From positions 1 through 32,968 of the IMG/VR virus record IMGVR_UViG_3300028569_000103: a stretch of 32,968 bases of DNA. One strand, written 5' to 3'. A model generated the notes under the pieces. That model searched no databases. It was not told where the DNA came from and was given only the letters and a program-made list of their open reading frames with translations. Source of the stretch: a virus. Below are positions 4,418-32,423 of the stretch, piece by piece (positions within the stretch are counted from its first letter, which is position 1; each line of letters starts with the position of its first letter). The translations under genes were made by a program, and so were the position numbers.

Positions 4418-7098
4418 CAATTCAACTCGTACATGAACGACACAACACCATCCCTATTGTTTGCTGTTGTAGCGGTAAAGCTAAGCGCCACAGTTTGAGC
4501 ACCTGAAACAGCTTCTACTGTGCCCGCAGCTTGACCGAAGAAGGTCCCAGTGCCGAGAGCTTGAGAAACGTCGCTAAAGTTTGCCCTTGGAACAGGAAGA
4601 GATATCCGAAGGACCGTGTCTCCTATGCTTGTCGGGTCAACTGTTACCTTGCCCCAAACATAAACACGGTTGCCACGGTTCTCAAATCTAAAGACTAAAG
4701 CCGTAGACGCTGAGATGTTTGTCGTGTTTGTGAGCGTAGGGGTGTAGGTGCCTTGGCCTTGCTGAGTAAATGGAGCTAGAGCAATAACAGTTGGGTTAGA
4801 TGTCCAAGTTCCTGCTGTAGCTTGAGAAATTCTTGTCATAGCAACGAGCCTGAAAGCTACGTTAGATCTAGCCACTGCAGAATATAGAACGCCCCCGCTG
4901 TCAGATGCTGTATCCATAACAGTTGTTGAGATAGTAGAGCCCTCTTCAGGTATATATCCATTCGAGACAGCAAGCTCTACCGTTCCAGCGTTGTTGATGG
5001 CAAACCAGTAAAGATATGCATTATCTCCGTTTGCCATTCCAAGTGTAGCGCCTAATGGAATTGTTAAGAATGGGCTAGAGGTTACAGACACCTGAGAATA
5101 CTGACCCGCAGTTAGCGTTGCGTTTCTAAAGCCAATCAATACAGGAGAACTTACGGATGGGATCGCTGCCGATGCGTCCCTCAGTCTTCCTGTAAAAGCA
5201 CTTGCTGAAGATGTAGCATCAAACCCGGCATTGCTTAGTTGATCGCTTGATGTCGGGGCCGTTGTTGGAGTCGCCCAGATAGGAGCAGACGCCCCCTGAC
5301 TTGTGAGAACCTGGCCCGTCGTACCCGCCGCAGTGACCTCGATAGAGTCTGCGTCTGTATAGACCGCACCGCCAGCAGCAGGAGTTAAGTTCTTGTTTGT
5401 GCCGCCGTTTGCCAGAGGCAGAACGCCAGAAACATCTGCAGTTAAAGAAACCGCGCCAAAGCTAGGAGCTGAGCCTGTAGTGCCTTTGAGAACGGTGCCA
5501 GTTGTACCCGCAGCCGTTGCAACAGGGCTTGCACCTGCGCCACCGCCGTACACTACGCCGTTTGCAGTTAAAAGAGCCGAGCTTGTGAGTTGAGAAGTAG
5601 ACGAGAAGTAAGGGATGCCGCCCGATGTTCCTGTCGTTGCAAGGGCAATAGTTCCTGAGCTTGTAACTGGGCTGCCAGTAACGCTAAAGATTGAGGTTGC
5701 AGGGACAGAAAGTCCTACAGAAGAAACTCCACCAGCAGTTGCCCAAGTCCCATCTCCGCGCCAAAATGTAGAGCTAGTAGCACCTGTTCCTGAGTTTAAA
5801 TTAGTGACAGGAAGATTTCCTGTTACCATTGATGCAAGGTCTACGTTACCAAACTGAGTGTTGCCGCTTGTTCCTGACAAAAGGACTTTGCTAGCAGTGT
5901 AATTGTCTGGAAATCTAAATGTGTAGTCAGACCCCAAGTTGTTGGTTTCAAAAAGAATAGAGAATCCGTTTCCCCTCAGCCTCATGCCGCCAGTCCAAAC
6001 GGTCCAGGGAAAACTGTAAGAACCTAAACTCTGTGAAAACGCAGTGTTTGGCAAAAGATCACCGCCAAAACGTGAAGCCACGCCCGAAGATCCTGCAGTA
6101 TCAATCGCCCACGCTGTGTTGCTGTCACCACCACTTGCCACAACGTTATCAATCTTAAGACCAGTGGCGATGTGAGCCCCACCCCCACCGTCAGCTCCGG
6201 TAGCGTGAGCGCGTGAGATATAAATGCCAGTAGCATTTTTAATAATACCGCCACCAGTGGAAACGTTACCCACATAAGACTCAAGGCCGTAGGCATTCGT
6301 AATAGTACCAGACGAAACATCTCCACCGCCTGCGTTGTAGTCAAATAGACGAGAGATAGCACGAGCGCCATAGGTCTCAGTTACAACCCCATCACCAGAC
6401 ATCTCAGCCGTAAGATAGTTTCTAAGAAGATCGACTGTTCCGGTGGGATGATTGCCCCTCACGTTGGCGTAAAGCCCTTGATGATAGCTTCCTGCACCAG
6501 AGCTAGAAACAATAAGGGACGAATCTAAGTTGCTCCAAGTCGTCCCACCAGCAACACTTTTATAAACAGAAAGCCCGTTGTCAGTCGGTGCGTTGTTTCC
6601 GATGCCGACCTGTCCAGTGGAAAGAATGCGAAGCCTTTCCGCGTTGTCGGTCTTAATGACAAAATCTTGTGTGTCTGTGGTCCCAATAAAGTTTACAGCG
6701 TCATCAGTTCCGGCGTTACCCAAGATATCCCATTTCCCAGACATGTTGTTAACAACGGTCCAATTTGAATCCTTAAGATAAAAGGTTCCGGTCTGACCTG
6801 GGAGAACAAAGCCAAGTGATGCAGATGCAGAGTCTTCAACCTCGATGGCTCCAGTACTCTCGTTTACAACCTGAACACGACGACCAATAGGAAGTGTAGT
6901 CACATCGGGAAGCTGCAGAGTGTGTGCGCTTGAGCCCGTAAAGATCTGATAGGTCTGAGAGGATTTTGTTAGAACCTTTGTTGACCCAGACGTGACAGTG
7001 ATTTCTCGTCCCTCAACAAGAGCCGGACCTTGGACAAAAGTCTGAGCTACAAGAGAGACCGAGAGAGTAAGCCCTGCAATAAAGATTAAGCGTTTCAT
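4417..7098 (-). CDS. Large tail fibre or adhesin with N-terminal signal peptide
   Basis: An 893-residue fibre protein. Residues 1-19 look like a Sec signal peptide (Lys-Arg, hydrophobic core, SLVAQ). This is odd for a virion fibre, which assembles in the cytoplasm. The start is well supported: AGGAG is 4 bases upstream and the ATG overlaps the upstream stop. Residues 120-172 contain WDILGNAG, NFIGTTD and GQVGIG motifs, typical of bacterial trimeric fibres and tail fibres. Glycine/serine/threonine-rich beta repeats follow, including FWRGDGTWAT near 445-454 and PLANGGT near 562. A distinct beta-rich C-terminal domain (from about 780) is a candidate receptor-binding tip. It could instead be a lysogenic-conversion surface adhesin. 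Confidence 0.8.
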   Translation of the reverse strand: MKRLIFIAGLTLSVSLVAQTFVQGPALVEGREITVTSGSTKVLTKSSQTYQIFTGSSAHTLQLPDVTTLPIGRRVQVVNESTGAIEVEDSASASLGFVLPGQTGTFYLKDSNWTVVNNMSGKWDILGNAGTDDAVNFIGTTDTQDFVIKTDNAERLRILSTGQVGIGNNAPTDNGLSVYKSVAGGTTWSNLDSSLIVSSSGAGSYHQGLYANVRGNHPTGTVDLLRNYLTAEMSGDGVVTETYGARAISRLFDYNAGGGDVSSGTITNAYGLESYVGNVSTGGGIIKNATGIYISRAHATGADGGGGAHIATGLKIDNVVASGGDSNTAWAIDTAGSSGVASRFGGDLLPNTAFSQSLGSYSFPWTVWTGGMRLRGNGFSILFETNNLGSDYTFRFPDNYTASKVLLSGTSGNTQFGNVDLASMVTGNLPVTNLNSGTGATSSTFWRGDGTWATAGGVSSVGLSVPATSIFSVTGSPVTSSGTIALATTGTSGGIPYFSSTSQLTSSALLTANGVVYGGGAGASPVATAAGTTGTVLKGTTGSAPSFGAVSLTADVSGVLPLANGGTNKNLTPAAGGAVYTDADSIEVTAAGTTGQVLTSQGASAPIWATPTTAPTSSDQLSNAGFDATSSASAFTGRLRDASAAIPSVSSPVLIGFRNATLTAGQYSQVSVTSSPFLTIPLGATLGMANGDNAYLYWFAINNAGTVELAVSNGYIPEEGSTISTTVMDTASDSGGVLYSAVARSNVAFRLVAMTRISQATAGTWTSNPTVIALAPFTQQGQGTYTPTLTNTTNISASTALVFRFENRGNRVYVWGKVTVDPTSIGDTVLRISLPVPRANFSDVSQALGTGTFFGQAAGTVEAVSGAQTVALSFTATTANNRDGVVSFMYELN

Positions 7099-16183: not shown

Positions 16184-17425
16184 TTATAGCTCCTCTACAA
16201 GCAAGGTACAGTTTCTAACGAATGCGCTAATGTTTGAGTCTCCCCCGGCTACCTCAACGCTAAATGTATATGTGCCAGCTGCAGGAGATACGTTTGCTAG
16301 TACAAAACCAACATTATAAAGGGAACTTCCTGTTTGTGTTGTGCCCTCTGGGTTTCCAAAGTTTGCAGTAGCCTCATGCTCGCCGACAGTCGTTGCCCCA
16401 TCTTGCCTTACTCGGATTTTTACTGATCTTGGAGAAAAATCCCCTGCTGTTATGGCCCGCTCAAGACCCCAATAAGAAACAAAACTTGTAGAAGACGGCA
16501 TAAGCCACATTCTTAGTCTGCGCCCAGTGGTTGTGAACGAAACTGAAAGGTTTGTTACAGGTGTGTAAGTTGTTCCCGTCATTGAGAACGTACCAGAACC
16601 AAGGGATTCAGCTTCATTCCTACCAAGTTTTGCTGGGGTTACTGCATTATCAGCAATCTTTGCAGTTGTTACGTTGCTATCTGCAATCTTGGTTGTCGTA
16701 ACATTGGAGTCGGCAATCTTTGCAGTCGTTACATTAGAGTCGGCGATTTTAATCGTTGTGACGTTAGAATCTGCAATGTCTGCCGTGATGACTTGCGTAG
16801 ACGACAGGACACCAGTTGAAGAAATCTTTACTGGAAGCGTGGACAGGGGCAAGCCGTTAAAGAAGGTAATTGTTTGGTTTGATCCAAGACCCGCAGGGTT
16901 TTGGAGCTTTGTGTAGTTCGAAGCTGCCGTGTTCTCGTAGATAAACACAGGACCACACGCAAGGTTCGCTGTGAGCGTAGGAGATTGCTTGAACAAGAAG
17001 AGCTTGGTTGAGTCTGTGTAGATAACCGAAGCTGTTGACGTGGAGTAATCCCCGCCGATAGTTCCTAGAGAAGTTAGGTTGATGCCTGTCCCTGCTGTAA
17101 TCTGAATCGGCACACCTGCAGAGTTGTTGAAGTAAAGATCTCCACCGACAACGTAAACCGCAGACGCCTGAGCCGTAACAGCTACCTTACTTGTGTAGCG
17201 GCTAGCTCCAAGCTCAACAATGTCAAACGAGTTCATGTCAAACGAATCGGTGATGATGAAGGCCGCCTGACTTAGGGGCTGACCGTTTCCAGACGTGTGA
17301 TCGTGAGCATCAACGCGCTCAAGAGCTGTGTTGAGGTTAGTTGCATACGTTGGCCCTACCTGTCCCGAGGGACCTACTGTGGGCAATACCAAGTTCATGA
17401 GGGGCGTTGTAAAAGTTACAGGCAT
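16184..17425 (-). CDS. Tail fibre / tailspike with decapeptide repeats
   Basis: A 413-residue fibre. The N-terminal 60 residues (LPTVGPSGQVGPTYATNLN, DAHDHTSGNG) resemble the virion-anchoring region of podovirus fibres. The centre is beta-rich (VYVVGGDLYFNNS, GTGINLTSLGTI). Residues about 217-266 contain five copies of a ten-residue repeat (IADSNVTTxK), encoded by 30-bp direct repeats, which probably form a slender triple-stranded shaft. The C-terminal domain from 275 has a jelly-roll-like look (GTFSMTGTTYTPVTNLSV through TYTFSVEVAGG) and may bind receptors. AGGAG sits 4 bases before the ATG. It lies between the tail hub and a small virion gene. Confidence 0.75.
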   Translation of the reverse strand: MPVTFTTPLMNLVLPTVGPSGQVGPTYATNLNTALERVDAHDHTSGNGQPLSQAAFIITDSFDMNSFDIVELGASRYTSKVAVTAQASAVYVVGGDLYFNNSAGVPIQITAGTGINLTSLGTIGGDYSTSTASVIYTDSTKLFLFKQSPTLTANLACGPVFIYENTAASNYTKLQNPAGLGSNQTITFFNGLPLSTLPVKISSTGVLSSTQVITADIADSNVTTIKIADSNVTTAKIADSNVTTTKIADSNVTTAKIADNAVTPAKLGRNEAESLGSGTFSMTGTTYTPVTNLSVSFTTTGRRLRMWLMPSSTSFVSYWGLERAITAGDFSPRSVKIRVRQDGATTVGEHEATANFGNPEGTTQTGSSLYNVGFVLANVSPAAGTYTFSVEVAGGDSNISAFVRNCTLLVEEL

Positions 17426-27279: not shown

Positions 27280-27489
27280 CTGAGAGATGTCCAGCGTTTT
27301 AAGCCTTAGTCTCTCAGAGTTTAGACCCATGTAAGCAACGGTTGGAGGTCGAAACTTGGGGTGCTTCTACCCTAAGCATTTGGCCCATAAATCGCAAGAG
27401 CGTCTTTGGATAATCTTTAGCGAGTGCGCTCTATGCGCGGGCTGACAAAGCCCACAATCCTATGCGGGGTCGAGAGGCCCCGCTATTTT
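27280..27489 (+). ncRNA. Candidate structured RNA on the plus strand, ending in a terminator
   Basis: This 200-base intergenic stretch has no convincing gene. It holds an 8-bp perfect stem (CTGAGAGA, 27280-27287, with 27310-27317), an 8-bp stem (CTTGGGGT, 27355-27362, with 27369-27376) and a 5-bp hairpin at 27439-27453. The last element is GCGGGGTC-GAGA-GGCCCCGC (27464-27483) with a GNRA loop and TATTTT after it. Two stems contain a G-U pair that forms only on the plus-strand RNA, which suggests transcription opposite to the flanking genes. A plus-strand promoter is not clear. Confidence 0.3.
27464..27489 (+). terminator. Rho-independent terminator on the plus strand at the methylase 3' end
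   Basis: The plus-strand RNA folds as an 8-bp stem (GCGGGGUC with GGCCCCGC, one U-G wobble) closed by a GAGA tetraloop and followed by UAUUUU. On the minus strand the same stem has a C-A mismatch and no U run, so it is not a good terminator for the methylase gene that ends here. It overlaps that gene's stop codon. Confidence 0.5.
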
Positions 27490-28355
27490 ACTCCATTCCA
27501 GAATAACTTTTCAACGCTATCGGTTGTAGTTTGTGAGTTGGTCTTCTTATGCCTAAAGGCCGCCACAGTTTTTATGTCTGGCGGAGCCGTATACTCAGAA
27601 ACGTAAACTGGGTGAGGGCATTCACGCACCCATTCCCAAAACCTATCGTGATCGAAGCTCCGAGTGTAGCCAGCGGTGCCCTTGTAGGGAGGGTCGCAAT
27701 ACACGACTGAATTCGGTTTGATCGCAACTTCGTCGTAGCTTAGGGAGCTTGTTGTAAGCCGCTCTAGCCGCTCTAGCCGCTCTAGCCGCTCTAGCCGCTC
27801 TAGCCGCTCTAGCTGCTCTAGCTGCTGTAGCTGCTGTAGCTGCTGTAGATCCAAACGATCTCCCCGTGTGCGCACTATGGTTCGACATGCGAGCCGTCGC
27901 CCTCGGATACTAATGTCAGGTAGCTTACTAACACCTAGAATCTTGACGGCGCGTTCGCTCCACTCATCGAACACAACCGCCATATGAAGCGCACGCTTAT
28001 CCTGCTCAATATCTTTCCCAAAGATGTAGCCCTTCTGATTGTTGCCAAAGCTCCAAACAATACGCGTGTAGGCGCATGTTGCTTTACGAGCGTCAAACAT
28101 TTCTCGGCTAATCCACTCAGGCTTAAAATTATCGTAGCTATATTTTCCCGCGATTGCGTCGAGCACAAGCTGCACAGTGCTTGACTCAATTTCGTTGTAG
28201 TGGACATTGCACTTTCGGTGAAGAGTCATGTAATGCGAGACAGAAAACCCACCACCGAACAGATCATAAAAGTTTTCAGCAGTGGGGATAATTGCGTTTA
28301 GCTTGTCGACGAGCTTATCCTTTGATCCCTGGTAAGGTAAGCCATAGTTAGCCAC
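27483..28355 (-). CDS. Dam-type DNA adenine-N6 methyltransferase with leucine repeat insertion
   Basis: A 290-residue class D12 methylase. Motif I is seen as DLFGGGFS (about 31-38) and motif IV as DPPY (221-224); YQGSKDKL near the start is the usual SAM-binding opening. Between them, residues 170-200 form a leucine repeat: three LQQ, one LEQ and six LER triplets, encoded by a 9-bp tandem repeat. The enzyme would transfer methyl from S-adenosylmethionine to adenine in phage or host DNA, possibly for restriction evasion. The start is a GTG at 28355, 8 bases inside the ParB-like gene. Target sequence is unknown. Confidence 0.85.
   Translation of the reverse strand: MANYGLPYQGSKDKLVDKLNAIIPTAENFYDLFGGGFSVSHYMTLHRKCNVHYNEIESSTVQLVLDAIAGKYSYDNFKPEWISREMFDARKATCAYTRIVWSFGNNQKGYIFGKDIEQDKRALHMAVVFDEWSERAVKILGVSKLPDISIRGRRLACRTIVRTRGDRLDLQQLQQLQQLEQLERLERLERLERLERLERLTTSSLSYDEVAIKPNSVVYCDPPYKGTAGYTRSFDHDRFWEWVRECPHPVYVSEYTAPPDIKTVAAFRHKKTNSQTTTDSVEKLFWNGVK
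27756..27848 (-). repeat. 9-bp tandem repeat inside the methylase gene
   Basis: On the minus strand the units progress from CTACAGCAG (three copies) through CTAGAGCAG (one) to CTAGAGCGG (six). Neighbouring unit types differ by a single base. They encode LQQ, LEQ and LER. Because the unit is three codons, gain or loss of copies keeps the reading frame. Confidence 0.9.
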
Positions 28356-29013: not shown

Positions 29014-29949
29014 TTGGGACGAATTAGAACAATTAAACCTGAATTTCCACAATCCGAAACTATGGGCAAAGTAAGCCGTGATGCACGCTTAACTTTTCTG
29101 CTTTTATTTACACTCGTCGATGACTCGGGGACATCTCGTGGAAACGTCGCGATGCTTCGTCGAAGCCTCTTCCCTTACGATGATGTGACCCAAGAGCAGA
29201 TGGACGGCTGGCTTTCTGAGCTTGCCGACGCAAAAGCCATCATTCGGTATCAAAGCGCCGAAGGTGATAATTACATCAAAATACCTAAGTGGGCGGAACA
29301 TCAGAAGATTGACCGCGCAAGCCCCTCAAAACTTCCCCAGTTTGACGACAATTCGACGACAATTCGACGACAATTCGACGAATCCTCGCGAGGGCTCGCC
29401 GTAGGATTGGAAGGGAATGGAAGGGAATGGAAGGGAATGGAAGGGAATGGATCTAGTGCACCCGCGCGAAGGCTCGCCGACAAGCCTCCGGCTGTCGGGC
29501 CGTCTCCAATTTCAGAAATCCGTACTTCGTTTTTAGAAAGTTTCGAAAAGGAGTTCGGAAGAAGCTACCCAGGTTGGGGCGTGAAAGAAAACGGCCAAGC
29601 TAAGGCCTGGCTCAAAAGCGTCAGCGTTGAAACGGCCAAGGAGCTTTGCCGCCTGTACCCGAAATGGAACGACCCTTGGGTAACAAAGCAGGGCCACCCA
29701 TTTGGGATTCTCGTAGCCCAATATGTGCAGCTCGATGCCTGGTCTAAGTCCCACAGGATTCTCGTTGACAAGATCGCCAAAGGTCGGGCAGTAGAGGCGG
29801 TAGACATCAAGAAAGCAGTTCAGTTGGAGGAACTAGATCGTGGAATACAGCACACCTACGAATCATCGCGGGATCGTCATGATGGCAGCGGAAAACTTCC
29901 GCATAAAACCTCGGACGGAATACCTATCACAAGCAGCGATTTTCTTTGA
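29014..29949 (+). CDS. Phage replication initiator-like protein
   Basis: A 311-residue protein. The TTG at 29014 is preferred because AGGGGG lies 4 bases upstream and it gives the classic opening GRIRTIKPEFPQSE; an earlier TTG at 28999 lacks a site. The N-terminal 100 residues (SRDARLTFLLLFTLVDDSGTSRGN, LFPYDDVTQEQMDGWLSEL, YIKIPKWAEHQKID) form the winged-helix DNA-binding domain of this common phage replication family. Residues about 111-146 are a repeat-encoded linker. The C-terminal helical domain (FEKEFGRSYPGWGVKENGQAKAWLK) may recruit the helicase loader. It is first in the early operon and its last 110 bases overlap the next gene. Confidence 0.8.
   Translation: MGRIRTIKPEFPQSETMGKVSRDARLTFLLLFTLVDDSGTSRGNVAMLRRSLFPYDDVTQEQMDGWLSELADAKAIIRYQSAEGDNYIKIPKWAEHQKIDRASPSKLPQFDDNSTTIRRQFDESSRGLAVGLEGNGREWKGMEGNGSSAPARRLADKPPAVGPSPISEIRTSFLESFEKEFGRSYPGWGVKENGQAKAWLKSVSVETAKELCRLYPKWNDPWVTKQGHPFGILVAQYVQLDAWSKSHRILVDKIAKGRAVEAVDIKKAVQLEELDRGIQHTYESSRDRHDGSGKLPHKTSDGIPITSSDFL
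29344..29381 (+). repeat. 11-bp tandem repeat in the replication gene (iteron-like)
   Basis: Unit GACGACAATTC is present three times in full, at 29344, 29355 and 29366, followed by a partial copy at 29377. The unit is not a multiple of three, so copies are read in different frames. An 11-bp period places the copies on nearly one face of the helix, as in initiator-binding iterons. Confidence 0.85.
29409..29450 (+). repeat. 10-bp tandem repeat in the replication gene
   Basis: Unit GGAAGGGAAT occurs four times in full, with two extra bases, starting 28 bases after the 11-bp array. The unit is purine-only apart from the final T on this strand. Change of copy number by one would shift the reading frame. 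Confidence 0.9.
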
Positions 29950-30370
29950 GAAACACTTTACCGAAGAGCAAACTAAACAATGCCTTAAGGTTGCTGTCGA
30001 AACGATGGATAACTTCCCTTCGGTTGCCGAAATTACAAAGCTGTCCGAGCGGCTGGGCTTCAAAAAAATATCAGAAGCTAAGCCGCAGATCATCGAGGAC
30101 GACTGCCAATGGTGCGACGGCTTCGGGATTGTTGCCATGTCCCCAGCTGATAGCTCTAGGCTTGCCCCCTTTCACTGCACTTACTGCGAGAACGGAGAGG
30201 CTATGAGGATCTTGACCTCGACAATGAGCGATGGGTCAATTGCTTCGGCACGGCAGGGCTGGTGCATAGGCTGGCGGCCACAAAATAAATTATTACTTGC
30301 TAGGTGCTTGGAAGCGGTAGAGGCCAAGAAAGTCAACCGTTTGCCCTACCGAGATGATCCCCATTACTAG
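29840..30370 (+). CDS. Zinc-finger replication accessory protein (helicase-loader candidate)
   Basis: A 176-residue protein. The GTG at 29840 has a strong GGAGGA site 7 bases upstream, better than the ATGs at 29879 and 29882. The N-terminal half is helical (TEYLSQAAIFFEKHFTEEQ, FPSVAEITKLSERLGF), and a zinc-binding pair CQWC / CTYC follows at about residues 89-124. The C-terminus is helical. Gene order (initiator, then a zinc-knuckle protein) resembles phage pairs of replication organiser and helicase loader, but no ATP-binding motif is present. It overlaps the initiator gene by 110 bases, so translation is linked. The function is inferred from position. Confidence 0.6.
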   Translation: MEYSTPTNHRGIVMMAAENFRIKPRTEYLSQAAIFFEKHFTEEQTKQCLKVAVETMDNFPSVAEITKLSERLGFKKISEAKPQIIEDDCQWCDGFGIVAMSPADSSRLAPFHCTYCENGEAMRILTSTMSDGSIASARQGWCIGWRPQNKLLLARCLEAVEAKKVNRLPYRDDPHY

Positions 30371-30874: not shown

Positions 30875-31063
30875 ATGAAATATTTATTTTTACTCTTAAC
30901 CCTTTCTTCTCTCTCAGGCTGCGCAGGTATGGCTCACATGGGCCAAGCTCTCGGCAAAGGTATGCAGCAAAATGCACGTTACGGTTATCAGCAGCCACAA
31001 CGCCAACAAGTCTGCACGACTTCACCGAACGGCTTTGGTGGCTTTAGAACGGTGTGCAACTAA
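30875..31063 (+). CDS. Small lipoprotein
   Basis: A 62-residue protein with a signal peptide (LFLLLTLSSLSGC) and lipobox LSGC at residues 13-16. The mature part is glutamine/glycine-rich with two further cysteines (QQVCTTSPNG and the ending FRTVCN). The residue after the lipidated cysteine is alanine, which in E. coli would permit outer-membrane sorting. AAGGAG lies 5 bases upstream of the ATG. Expressed early, it may alter the cell surface or exclude other phages, but this is conjecture. Confidence 0.7.
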   Translation: MKYLFLLLTLSSLSGCAGMAHMGQALGKGMQQNARYGYQQPQRQQVCTTSPNGFGGFRTVCN

Positions 31064-31064
31064 T

Positions 31065-31316
31065 ATGACCCTAGACGACAAAGCTAGAGAAGAACTGGCA
31101 GAGCTTCTACGCACAACCCGAAAGAAACGCTGTACACAACGAGACATTGCCAACGAAATGGGGCTTGGATCGGCTCAATACGTTTCAAACGCTGAGCGTG
31201 GTGAAACAATGCCAAGCCTTGAAATGCTTAGGGCCTATCAGCAGCTAGACCCAAAGAACTTTAGAACCAAAGTGGCCTCAATCTTTTTTGATTCAGTTAG
31301 GAGAGCTTTAAAATGA
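31065..31316 (+). CDS. XRE/Cro-type HTH regulator
   Basis: An 83-residue DNA-binding protein. The helix-turn-helix is RDIANEMGLGSAQYVSNAERG at about residues 24-44, with the family's conserved SNAERGETMPS turn into the fourth helix. The start at 31065 follows the lipoprotein stop by one base; a longer frame from 30972 is only overlap. Such proteins repress phage promoters; the divergent control region at 28941-28995 is the obvious candidate target. There is no partner cI-like gene in the window, so lysogeny cannot be argued. Confidence 0.75.
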   Translation: MTLDDKAREELAELLRTTRKKRCTQRDIANEMGLGSAQYVSNAERGETMPSLEMLRAYQQLDPKNFRTKVASIFFDSVRRALK

Positions 31317-31801
31317 ATTTAGCATTACTTAACCAAGCCTATAACCAATTCCTAGAGCAGATCGAAAACGCTCAAGGCGAGATTGCCGACGAGACAGCCC
31401 TAGAAGAAGTCCAACGCGCTCTTGTCGCTAAGGTCGATCACGTCGCCTGGGTGCTCGATAAACTGGACGCTGACGCGGCTTTCTACACCGAACAGGCCGA
31501 TAAGCTCTATAACGCTGCCCAATCGCTCAAAAGGGCTCATGAGAGACTTAGATCATTCGTCTACTCGGTTGTTCAACAGACGCAAGATAAACGGCTTGAG
31601 GGCGAAACCGTGGCGTTTGGAGTTAAGAAAAGCCCGCCAGCCCTGCGGATTACCGATGAGTCACTGATTCCCGACCGTTTCCGCGTCCTAACCCCGTCGA
31701 TTGACAAGCCCGCTTTAAAGAAAGCTCTGGCTCAGGAAAGTATCCCAGGCGCATCCTTAGTGCAGGGTGAGAGTCTTCTGCGCACCCGTCCCAAAAAGTA
31801 G
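31313..31801 (+). CDS. Siphovirus Gp157-like protein
   Basis: A 162-residue protein whose helical centre (DHVAWVLDKLDADAAFYTEQADKLY, then AQSLKRAHERLRSFV) and beta segment (FGVKKSPPALRITDESLIPDRF) match the Gp157 family. This family recurs beside single-strand annealing and single-strand DNA-binding genes and may act in recombination or resistance, but its biochemical role is unsettled. The ATG overlaps the regulator stop by 4 bases. The erf-like gene follows 50 bases later. Confidence 0.8.
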   Translation: MNLALLNQAYNQFLEQIENAQGEIADETALEEVQRALVAKVDHVAWVLDKLDADAAFYTEQADKLYNAAQSLKRAHERLRSFVYSVVQQTQDKRLEGETVAFGVKKSPPALRITDESLIPDRFRVLTPSIDKPALKKALAQESIPGASLVQGESLLRTRPKK

Positions 31802-31802
31802 T

Positions 31803-31831
31803 TTACACAGCACATTAATATTAGTTAGACA
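31803..31831 (+). promoter_or_regulatory. Weak promoter candidate before erf
   Basis: TTTACA at 31803-31808 (five of six to a -35) is 17 bp from TTAGAC (a poor -10) in the 49-base gap before the annealing-protein gene. This gap is longer than usual in the operon. Low confidence. Confidence 0.25.
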
Positions 31832-31850
31832 GATCTTGTTGGAGGCAATC

Positions 31851-32423
31851 ATGAAATCATCACCCACTACGGCGGCCATCTTTACGGCCCTGGCTAAGGC
31901 GCAAGCTGAGCTTAAAAATGCAAAGTTTGACAGCCAAAACCCGCACTTTAGAAACAACTACGCATCACTAGAAAGCGTGCTTGAAACGATCAAGCCCGTC
32001 TTTGCTAAGCACGGCTTAGCCCTTTTCCAGTGTCCAGACCGCACCGAAGACGGCGGCTTCGTTCTCTCGAATATTCTCACCCACGAGTCTGGCGAGTTTA
32101 TTCAAACCGAGGCTCCGATCATTCTCACAAAGAACGACATGCAAGGACTCGGCTCCGCGATTACCTACCAACGCCGTTACTCAGCTCAAGGCATTGCTGG
32201 AATCGGATCGGACGACGATGACGGCAATGAAGCCTCTAAACCGGGCAACAAAGCGGGCGTTTACACAATTCCTTTTGGCAAACACAAGGGCAAGACCATT
32301 CCAGAGCTTGGCAAAGAAGAAGCGCGCAGCTACGGCTCGTGGCTGACGTCACAAGAGAAATCTAAGCAGGGAGACGAGTTGCTTGAGAAACTCCGAGAAT
32401 ACCTCGCTGAAAAGAAAGCTTGA
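31851..32423 (+). CDS. erf: ERF-family single-strand annealing protein
   Basis: A 190-residue recombinase. The start at 31851 has GGAGG 5 bases upstream; the longer open frame upstream is a shadow. The N-terminal domain reads AIFTALAKAQAELKNAKFDSQNPHFRNNYASL and contains GSAITYQRRYS at 101-111, with an acidic DDDDGN after it, all hallmarks of Erf. The C-terminal 55 residues hold FGKHKGKT (about 142-149), a separate small domain often attached to phage recombination or exonuclease proteins. Erf promotes annealing of complementary strands, helping genome circularisation and repair. Confidence 0.85.
   Translation: MKSSPTTAAIFTALAKAQAELKNAKFDSQNPHFRNNYASLESVLETIKPVFAKHGLALFQCPDRTEDGGFVLSNILTHESGEFIQTEAPIILTKNDMQGLGSAITYQRRYSAQGIAGIGSDDDDGNEASKPGNKAGVYTIPFGKHKGKTIPELGKEEARSYGSWLTSQEKSKQGDELLEKLREYLAEKKA

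Follow-up and report, generated by a model that had tools for sequence, protein, structure and literature searches.

Two tandem repeat arrays lie next to one another within the coding sequence of a putative replication gene in a virus record of IMG/VR. This raises the question of what maintains them. They could serve the encoded protein, they could switch its expression through changes of reading frame, or they could be an element of the DNA itself, such as an origin of replication. We have analyzed these arrays in the window, i.e., the whole 32,968-bp virus record, and in the homologues of the gene. The conclusion that emerges from the comparison of sequences is that the segment 29341-29452 is very probably a phage replication origin made of two modules, situated in the linker-coding part of the gene for the phage's own initiator.

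The initiator gene and its arrays

The features required for the analysis are as follows.

29014..29949, + strand: replication initiator gene (PHROG match and RepA-like annotation in relatives; start set by alignment)
29014..29355, + strand: predicted winged-helix N-terminal DNA-binding domain (AlphaFold2 model)
29341..29401, + strand: putative iteron array of six boxes (Tandem Repeats Finder and inspection of the boxes; helical 6-mer repeats in relatives)
29404..29452, coding (+) strand: purine GGA array, GGATT and then GGAAG/GGAAT alternating (Tandem Repeats Finder, homologues and hybrid energies)
29480..29949, + strand: C-terminal part of the initiator (frame still open 3' of the arrays; variable across relatives)
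29840..30370, + strand: overlapping next gene, possible helicase loader (by position only)
30972..32423, + strand: rest of the early module, with an HTH regulator, a Gp157/Gam-like protein and an Erf-type annealing protein (Pfam/PHROG)

The reading frame of the initiator is open from TTG 28999, but alignment indicates that the protein most likely starts at TTG 29014 (MGRIRTIKP...), the start of its relatives. Residues 8-153 match the replication initiation protein profiles PHROG 2149, 1408 and 16167, with E values from 2.9e-29 (PHROG 2149) to 2e-18, and the N-terminal region of 110-150 residues that gives these matches carries the annotation of RepA-like initiator or replication initiation protein in many actinophages. 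The PHROG 2149 match bears out the initial annotation of a replication gene. The C-terminal domains vary from one relative to another, and a Pfam search revealed no AAA+ domain in the initiator. The overlapping gene that follows gave no family match in Pfam or PHROG. The gene after the initiator is annotated as a helicase, helicase loader or ATP-binding protein in named relatives, and from its position the product here is possibly a helicase loader. The GC skew of the window is confounded by gene direction, and hence provides no call of an origin.

The N-terminal domain (N-domain) was modeled with AlphaFold2 using an alignment of 68 sequences, giving a mean pLDDT of 90.7, and the model allows us to predict a winged helix with confidence; prediction of the whole initiator from the single sequence gave a pLDDT of 35. 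The solved structures that matched the N-domain model best were 4pql, 4pt7 and 5kbj (Z = 9.1 to 8.3, the highest over 98 residues), which we take to be the N-domains of RepA_N plasmid initiators of the pSK41 type. These values are slightly above those for other winged-helix proteins and near the generic level for the fold, with the winged helices of ORC and Fur scoring almost as high as the plasmid initiators, so that the fold search excludes no winged-helix family. Searching PDB sequences with a profile of the N-domain gave nothing meaningful, and the initiator did not match Pfam RepA_N (PF06970) at E ≤ 1. At three other loci the N-domain is found in ORFs that contain no arrays, apparently fused to an HNH-type endonuclease; these sequences suggest that it has been reused as a DNA-binding domain in homing enzymes.

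Both arrays are located in the linker-coding part of the gene. Tandem Repeats Finder (TRF) reports GACGACAATTC repeated 3.5 times at 29344-29381 (array 1, 100% match, score 76) and GGAATGGAAG repeated 4.8 times at 29404-29451 (array 2, 97% match, score 89), a period of 5 also being reported for the latter. Thirty Markov-1 copies of the entire window gave repeat scores of at most 64; neither array is therefore due to chance, and the two tandem repeats first noticed here are genuine. The gap between them is 22 bp (29382-29403) rather than the 28 bases initially given, and it contains two degenerate copies of the 11-bp box, CTCGCGAG at 29385 and CTCGCCG at 29395. Array 1 thus comprises six boxes and almost touches array 2. 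The first box (TTTGACGA) starts at 29341 and the next three (TTCGACGA) at 29352, 29363 and 29374, so that together with the degenerate copies the steps are 11, 11, 11, 11 and 10 bp, the 11-bp array being the regular core of the set. Array 2 starts 2 bp after the last box, and its basic period is 5 bp (GGAAT/GGAAG). The GGA triplets are spaced by 5, 6 or 7 bp across the relatives, and array 2 is therefore not helically phased. The earlier suggestion that both periods correspond to about one helical turn consequently holds for array 1, with its 10-11-bp steps, but not for array 2.

Conservation of the two arrays

We collected homologues using the N-domain motif RIRT[IV]KP alone, in viral contigs and bacterial genomes, in order to avoid selecting on the arrays. 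This gave a set of at least 160 relatives, 116 of them non-redundant by k-mer overlap of their N-domains. The best 80 matches were taken from each scan, and hence the frequencies below apply to relatives near the query. The five closest viral homologues have differing direct repeats of 10-12 bp followed by repeats of GGGAA/GGAAT or GGGACC. Two of the five carry both arrays 3' of the stop codon of the N-domain gene. Mycobacterium phages Butters, Fishburne and Nazo share the arrangement of the window.

A GGA array was scored when at least five GGA triplets were present in 40 bp, within 280 bp after the N-domain. Such an array is found on the coding strand in 75% of the 116 listed non-redundant loci, and on the complementary strand of this region in 5%. 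Of 1762 control windows taken from these loci, 0.8% contain one. A TRF score of 50 or more after the N-domain was obtained for 69% of loci and 2.3% of controls. The distance from one GGA to the next is most often 5 bp (199 times), followed by 7 bp (145) and 6 bp (67). Array-bearing loci for which the organism could be placed belong to seven bacterial phyla. About a quarter of the homologues, several of those from Streptomyces among them, lack a clear GGA array. We also observed two runs of C (five or more, then four or more) within 100 bp after the GGA array in 7% of loci, compared with 0.3% of control windows.

Upstream of the GGA array, 70 of 88 loci have helically spaced 6-mer repeats where the boxes of the window lie. 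Pairs of identical 6-mers in the 85 bp before the array occur at distances of 10 bp (41 loci), 20 (29), 11 (25), 22 (15), 30 (12) and 33 (11), where shuffled sequences lead us to expect 2.5-4.2 per distance; the majority of the remaining distances do not exceed the expected number. The cores of the boxes vary among phages (TCGCGA, TCGACGA, TCACTGA, ACGCGT and others), and their class tracks the tree of 140 N-domains, four classes requiring 9 changes compared with 46.7 when the labels are shuffled. The distance from the last box core to the first GGA has a median of 12 bp in two large classes. In many relatives the sequence of array 1 therefore behaves like a set of initiator-specific, helically phased iterons, although the divergence of iterons together with N-domains could have arisen from shared descent alone. 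Judged by this comparison of sequences, the proposal of an iteron origin within the initiator gene is well supported.

The association can also be approached from the DNA. An exact search with the 27-bp unit of the window found three loci only, and a degenerate pattern was therefore employed. The pattern (GGRAD)5GGR was scanned through 2.9 million viral contigs with no reference to genes, giving at least 80 loci. In 62 of the 80 matches listed, an N-domain is encoded on the strand of the repeat no more than 900 bp upstream, and in none of those listed is it antisense; the 18 remaining listed matches include incomplete loci and about five that seem unrelated. The equally degenerate control (CCRAD)5CCR had an N-domain in 6 of the 80 matches listed, each of them an initiator gene with (CCAAT)n in the place of the array. 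With the heptamer pattern (GGAYCAA)3GGA, an N-domain was found upstream on the same strand in 35 of 40 loci. The GGGAACA heptamer is a poor marker by itself, since 37 of 80 listed loci have no upstream N-domain and many of the arrays lie in other genes. As arrays of this heptamer are found in numerous phage genes of other kinds, they may in part be repeats that are mobile or prone to slippage.

The blind scan further identified GGRAD arrays with other replication proteins, of the DUF1376 type (L024) and of the Lin1244_N type (L040 and L045). Three matches have an initiator-like layout, yet no match to a replication family. Detached, non-coding GGA arrays with iterons of their own were found in L018, L034, L035 and L081. 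The first three have ACGCGTG iterons together with a GGA array beside structural genes, and in L034 an initiator gene without ACGCGT lies some 5 kb away from this copy. In L081, at approximately position 6699 of the reverse strand, GATC boxes recur every 10 bp and are followed by (GGGAT)7, beside minus-strand phage genes that look structural from their layout; this copy is possibly an origin with methylation-sensitive boxes. Finally, in the initiator genes found with the (CCRAD)5CCR control, which represent five or six relatives (L310, L311/L362, L331, L340 and L350), (CCAAT)n follows iterons of their own, with opposite polarity.

Function of the arrays

We infer an origin that would work in the following manner. 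The six boxes, brought to one face of the helix by steps of 10-11 bp, would serve as binding sites for the initiator's winged-helix N-domain; box sequence and N-domain diverge together. The GGA array would be the site at which the duplex is opened, or held open, beside the complex of initiator and iterons, and the opened duplex would let the helicase loader or helicase encoded just downstream load. The linker peptide translated from the arrays would then be a by-product, needing only to keep the frame and to contain no stops.

The mean GC profile shows no AT-rich unwinding element beside the iterons. The purine repeat takes its place, with a GC content of 0.51-0.53 compared with 0.60 in the background, no AT-rich trough, and a purine content reaching 0.81. 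Because the GGA array is not AT-rich and adjoins unrelated initiators, our view is that it would depend on a physical property that differs between the strands, or on a host factor in common, and not on recognition by the initiator. Among several readings we favor, tentatively, one in which transcription of the initiator gene leaves purine-rich RNA hybridized at the GGA array, much as transcription assists the opening of ori-lambda. Hybrid preference was estimated from nearest-neighbor energies, and for a transcript in the direction of the gene it is −0.37 kcal/mol per step in the arrays, compared with −0.08 (sd 0.085) in random windows. The strongest preference for an RNA:DNA hybrid on either strand of the window is at the GGA array. 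These energies favor a route through an RNA:DNA hybrid but do not prove it, and it counts against the argument that any purine-rich sequence will give such a preference. The (CCAAT)n cases have the opposite polarity, and so weigh against a strict rule of coding-strand purines or R-loops.

The GGA array might alternatively be a loading site in single-stranded form, the initiator or helicase loader gripping the GGA triplets once the iteron-bound initiator has strained the duplex. The constant order of the two modules and the short interval between them would fit, as would the bias to the coding strand, and a spacing of 5-7 bp would suit flexible contacts with single-stranded DNA. There is moreover a precedent in the strand-specific single-strand recognition element proposed for DnaD at B. 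subtilis oriC (PMC10201434). However, the array accompanies unrelated initiators, so that one and the same gripping protein would have to serve them all, and the (CCAAT)n exceptions are no easier to accommodate here. We consider this rather unlikely.

Folding of the coding strand into a G-quadruplex that keeps the duplex open is improbable. Four GG tracts with short loops can be found in all 128 of 128 arrays, and the window itself has a GGG-N7 motif, but only 32% of arrays have a three-tier motif. The GGAAA and GGATCAA types have GG tracts only, which would be weak, and it is the GGA that is conserved and not the length of the tract.

Selection on the protein would provide a quite different explanation, in which the arrays are kept as a flexible, charged linker between domains and the repeats are mere products of slippage. 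The arrays do lie between N- and C-domains in most relatives, with the frame open. Yet only 30% of array periods are divisible by 3, compared with 76% for control repeats of the same contigs (P = 1.7e-9), the GGA triplets of the relatives fall in all three reading frames, the iterons are helically spaced, and there is no common linker peptide. In addition, both arrays are non-coding in actinophages with split genes and in some of the detached copies; in three loci they come, untranslated, after a separate N-domain gene. Given the non-coding copies and the period statistics we have rejected this explanation as highly improbable. GGRAD repeats are free of stops in all frames because T always precedes GG, and can therefore be tolerated inside a gene. 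A repeat of the control type is also present in the window. The D12-class methylase gene (27483-28355, minus strand) has a 9-bp unit repeated 10.2 times at 27757-27848, which in contrast to the initiator arrays preserves the frame, encoding LERLERLER. Another minus-strand gene (16184-17425) has a 30-bp unit repeated 3.1 times at 16653-16744, also preserving the frame, with the protein repeat ADSNVTTAKI.

The phase-variable switch that was initially suggested, in which gain or loss of a copy would frameshift the C-domain and turn the initiator on or off, draws on the fact that 11 and 10 are both indivisible by 3, but it can be virtually discounted. In 77 of the 83 homologues with an array the ORF runs on without a stop for 40 codons or more beyond it, split genes being among the others; the median open length is 125 codons in its own frame and 30 in the other two. 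A difference of 5 bp between the arrays of close relatives leaves long ORFs in both, from which we deduce that the frame is conserved by compensating changes and not switched.

The probable origin and comparison with known systems

Iterons inside initiator genes are already known, from lambda O and from RepA_N plasmids. The shared GGA module appears to be undescribed; we found no account of a GGA array in phage origins in the literature searched, which comprised open-licence papers and is thus weak evidence of novelty. It is quite possible, if short of probable, that a GGA repeat with 5-7-bp spacing directly after initiator-specific iterons constitutes a widespread module of phage origins, common to unrelated initiators and to hosts in at least seven bacterial phyla. 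It would provide a common route, either a stable RNA:DNA hybrid made by transcription or a shared host factor, in place of an AT-rich opening element. If so, the sequence would point to the origins of a great many temperate phages and prophages that have not been cultured. How an initiator with no recognizable ATPase domain brings about the opening of a duplex that is not AT-rich, and the loading of a helicase, is a long-standing question that could then be tested in a 110-bp segment. The specific part (the iterons) and the general part (the GGA array) are physically separate, and swaps between phages would therefore make clean experiments. The odd repetitive peptides in annotated phage replication proteins, such as EGKGREGKG and GNREQGTGNR, would be coding by-products of the origin.

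For the extrachromosomal mycobacteriophages Miko, Rachaly and Jeeves, a RepA origin has been proposed in or just upstream of the initiator gene (PMC7157519). Their RepA is a different one, with an HTH predicted at residues 95-132, and the stretch from the tail genes to parS-L is reported to lack repeated motifs (PMC7157519).

Bacterial oriC resembles the proposed origin in that its initiator boxes, in double-stranded DNA, are succeeded by a short element specific to one strand, close to the site of opening. One such element is the DnaA-trios, which are gripped by DnaA. Another is the recognition element of DnaD (PMC10201434). Here the initiator shows no AAA+ domain, and in place of AT-rich trinucleotides the repeat has GGA at intervals of 5-7 bp.

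The origin of lambda shares with the window the placing of iterons in the initiator gene, followed by a second tract. The lambda iterons are longer than the boxes found here, and the initiator of the window has no match to the lambda-O family in Pfam or PHROG. In lambda the tract that follows the iterons of gene O is AT-rich and is needed for opening, and transcription activates ori-lambda; the neighboring gene P encodes a replication protein, the helicase loader, which we count as a further likeness (PMC7466680). The corresponding tract here is a GG-containing purine repeat, of the GC content given above.

Staphylococcal RepA_N plasmids of the pSK41 type also have boxes in the middle of their own initiator gene and a separate C-domain. 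Their winged-helix N-domain binds these boxes, and the linker encoded by the origin is dispensable (PMC5703833). The initiator of the window differs in having no match to Pfam RepA_N or to PDB sequences, and its boxes are at steps of 10-11 bp. It also has the GGA array, for which the RepA_N account consulted (PMC5703833) has no counterpart. By analogy with the RepA_N and lambda precedents, the boxes of the window would be expected to bind the initiator within whose gene they lie.
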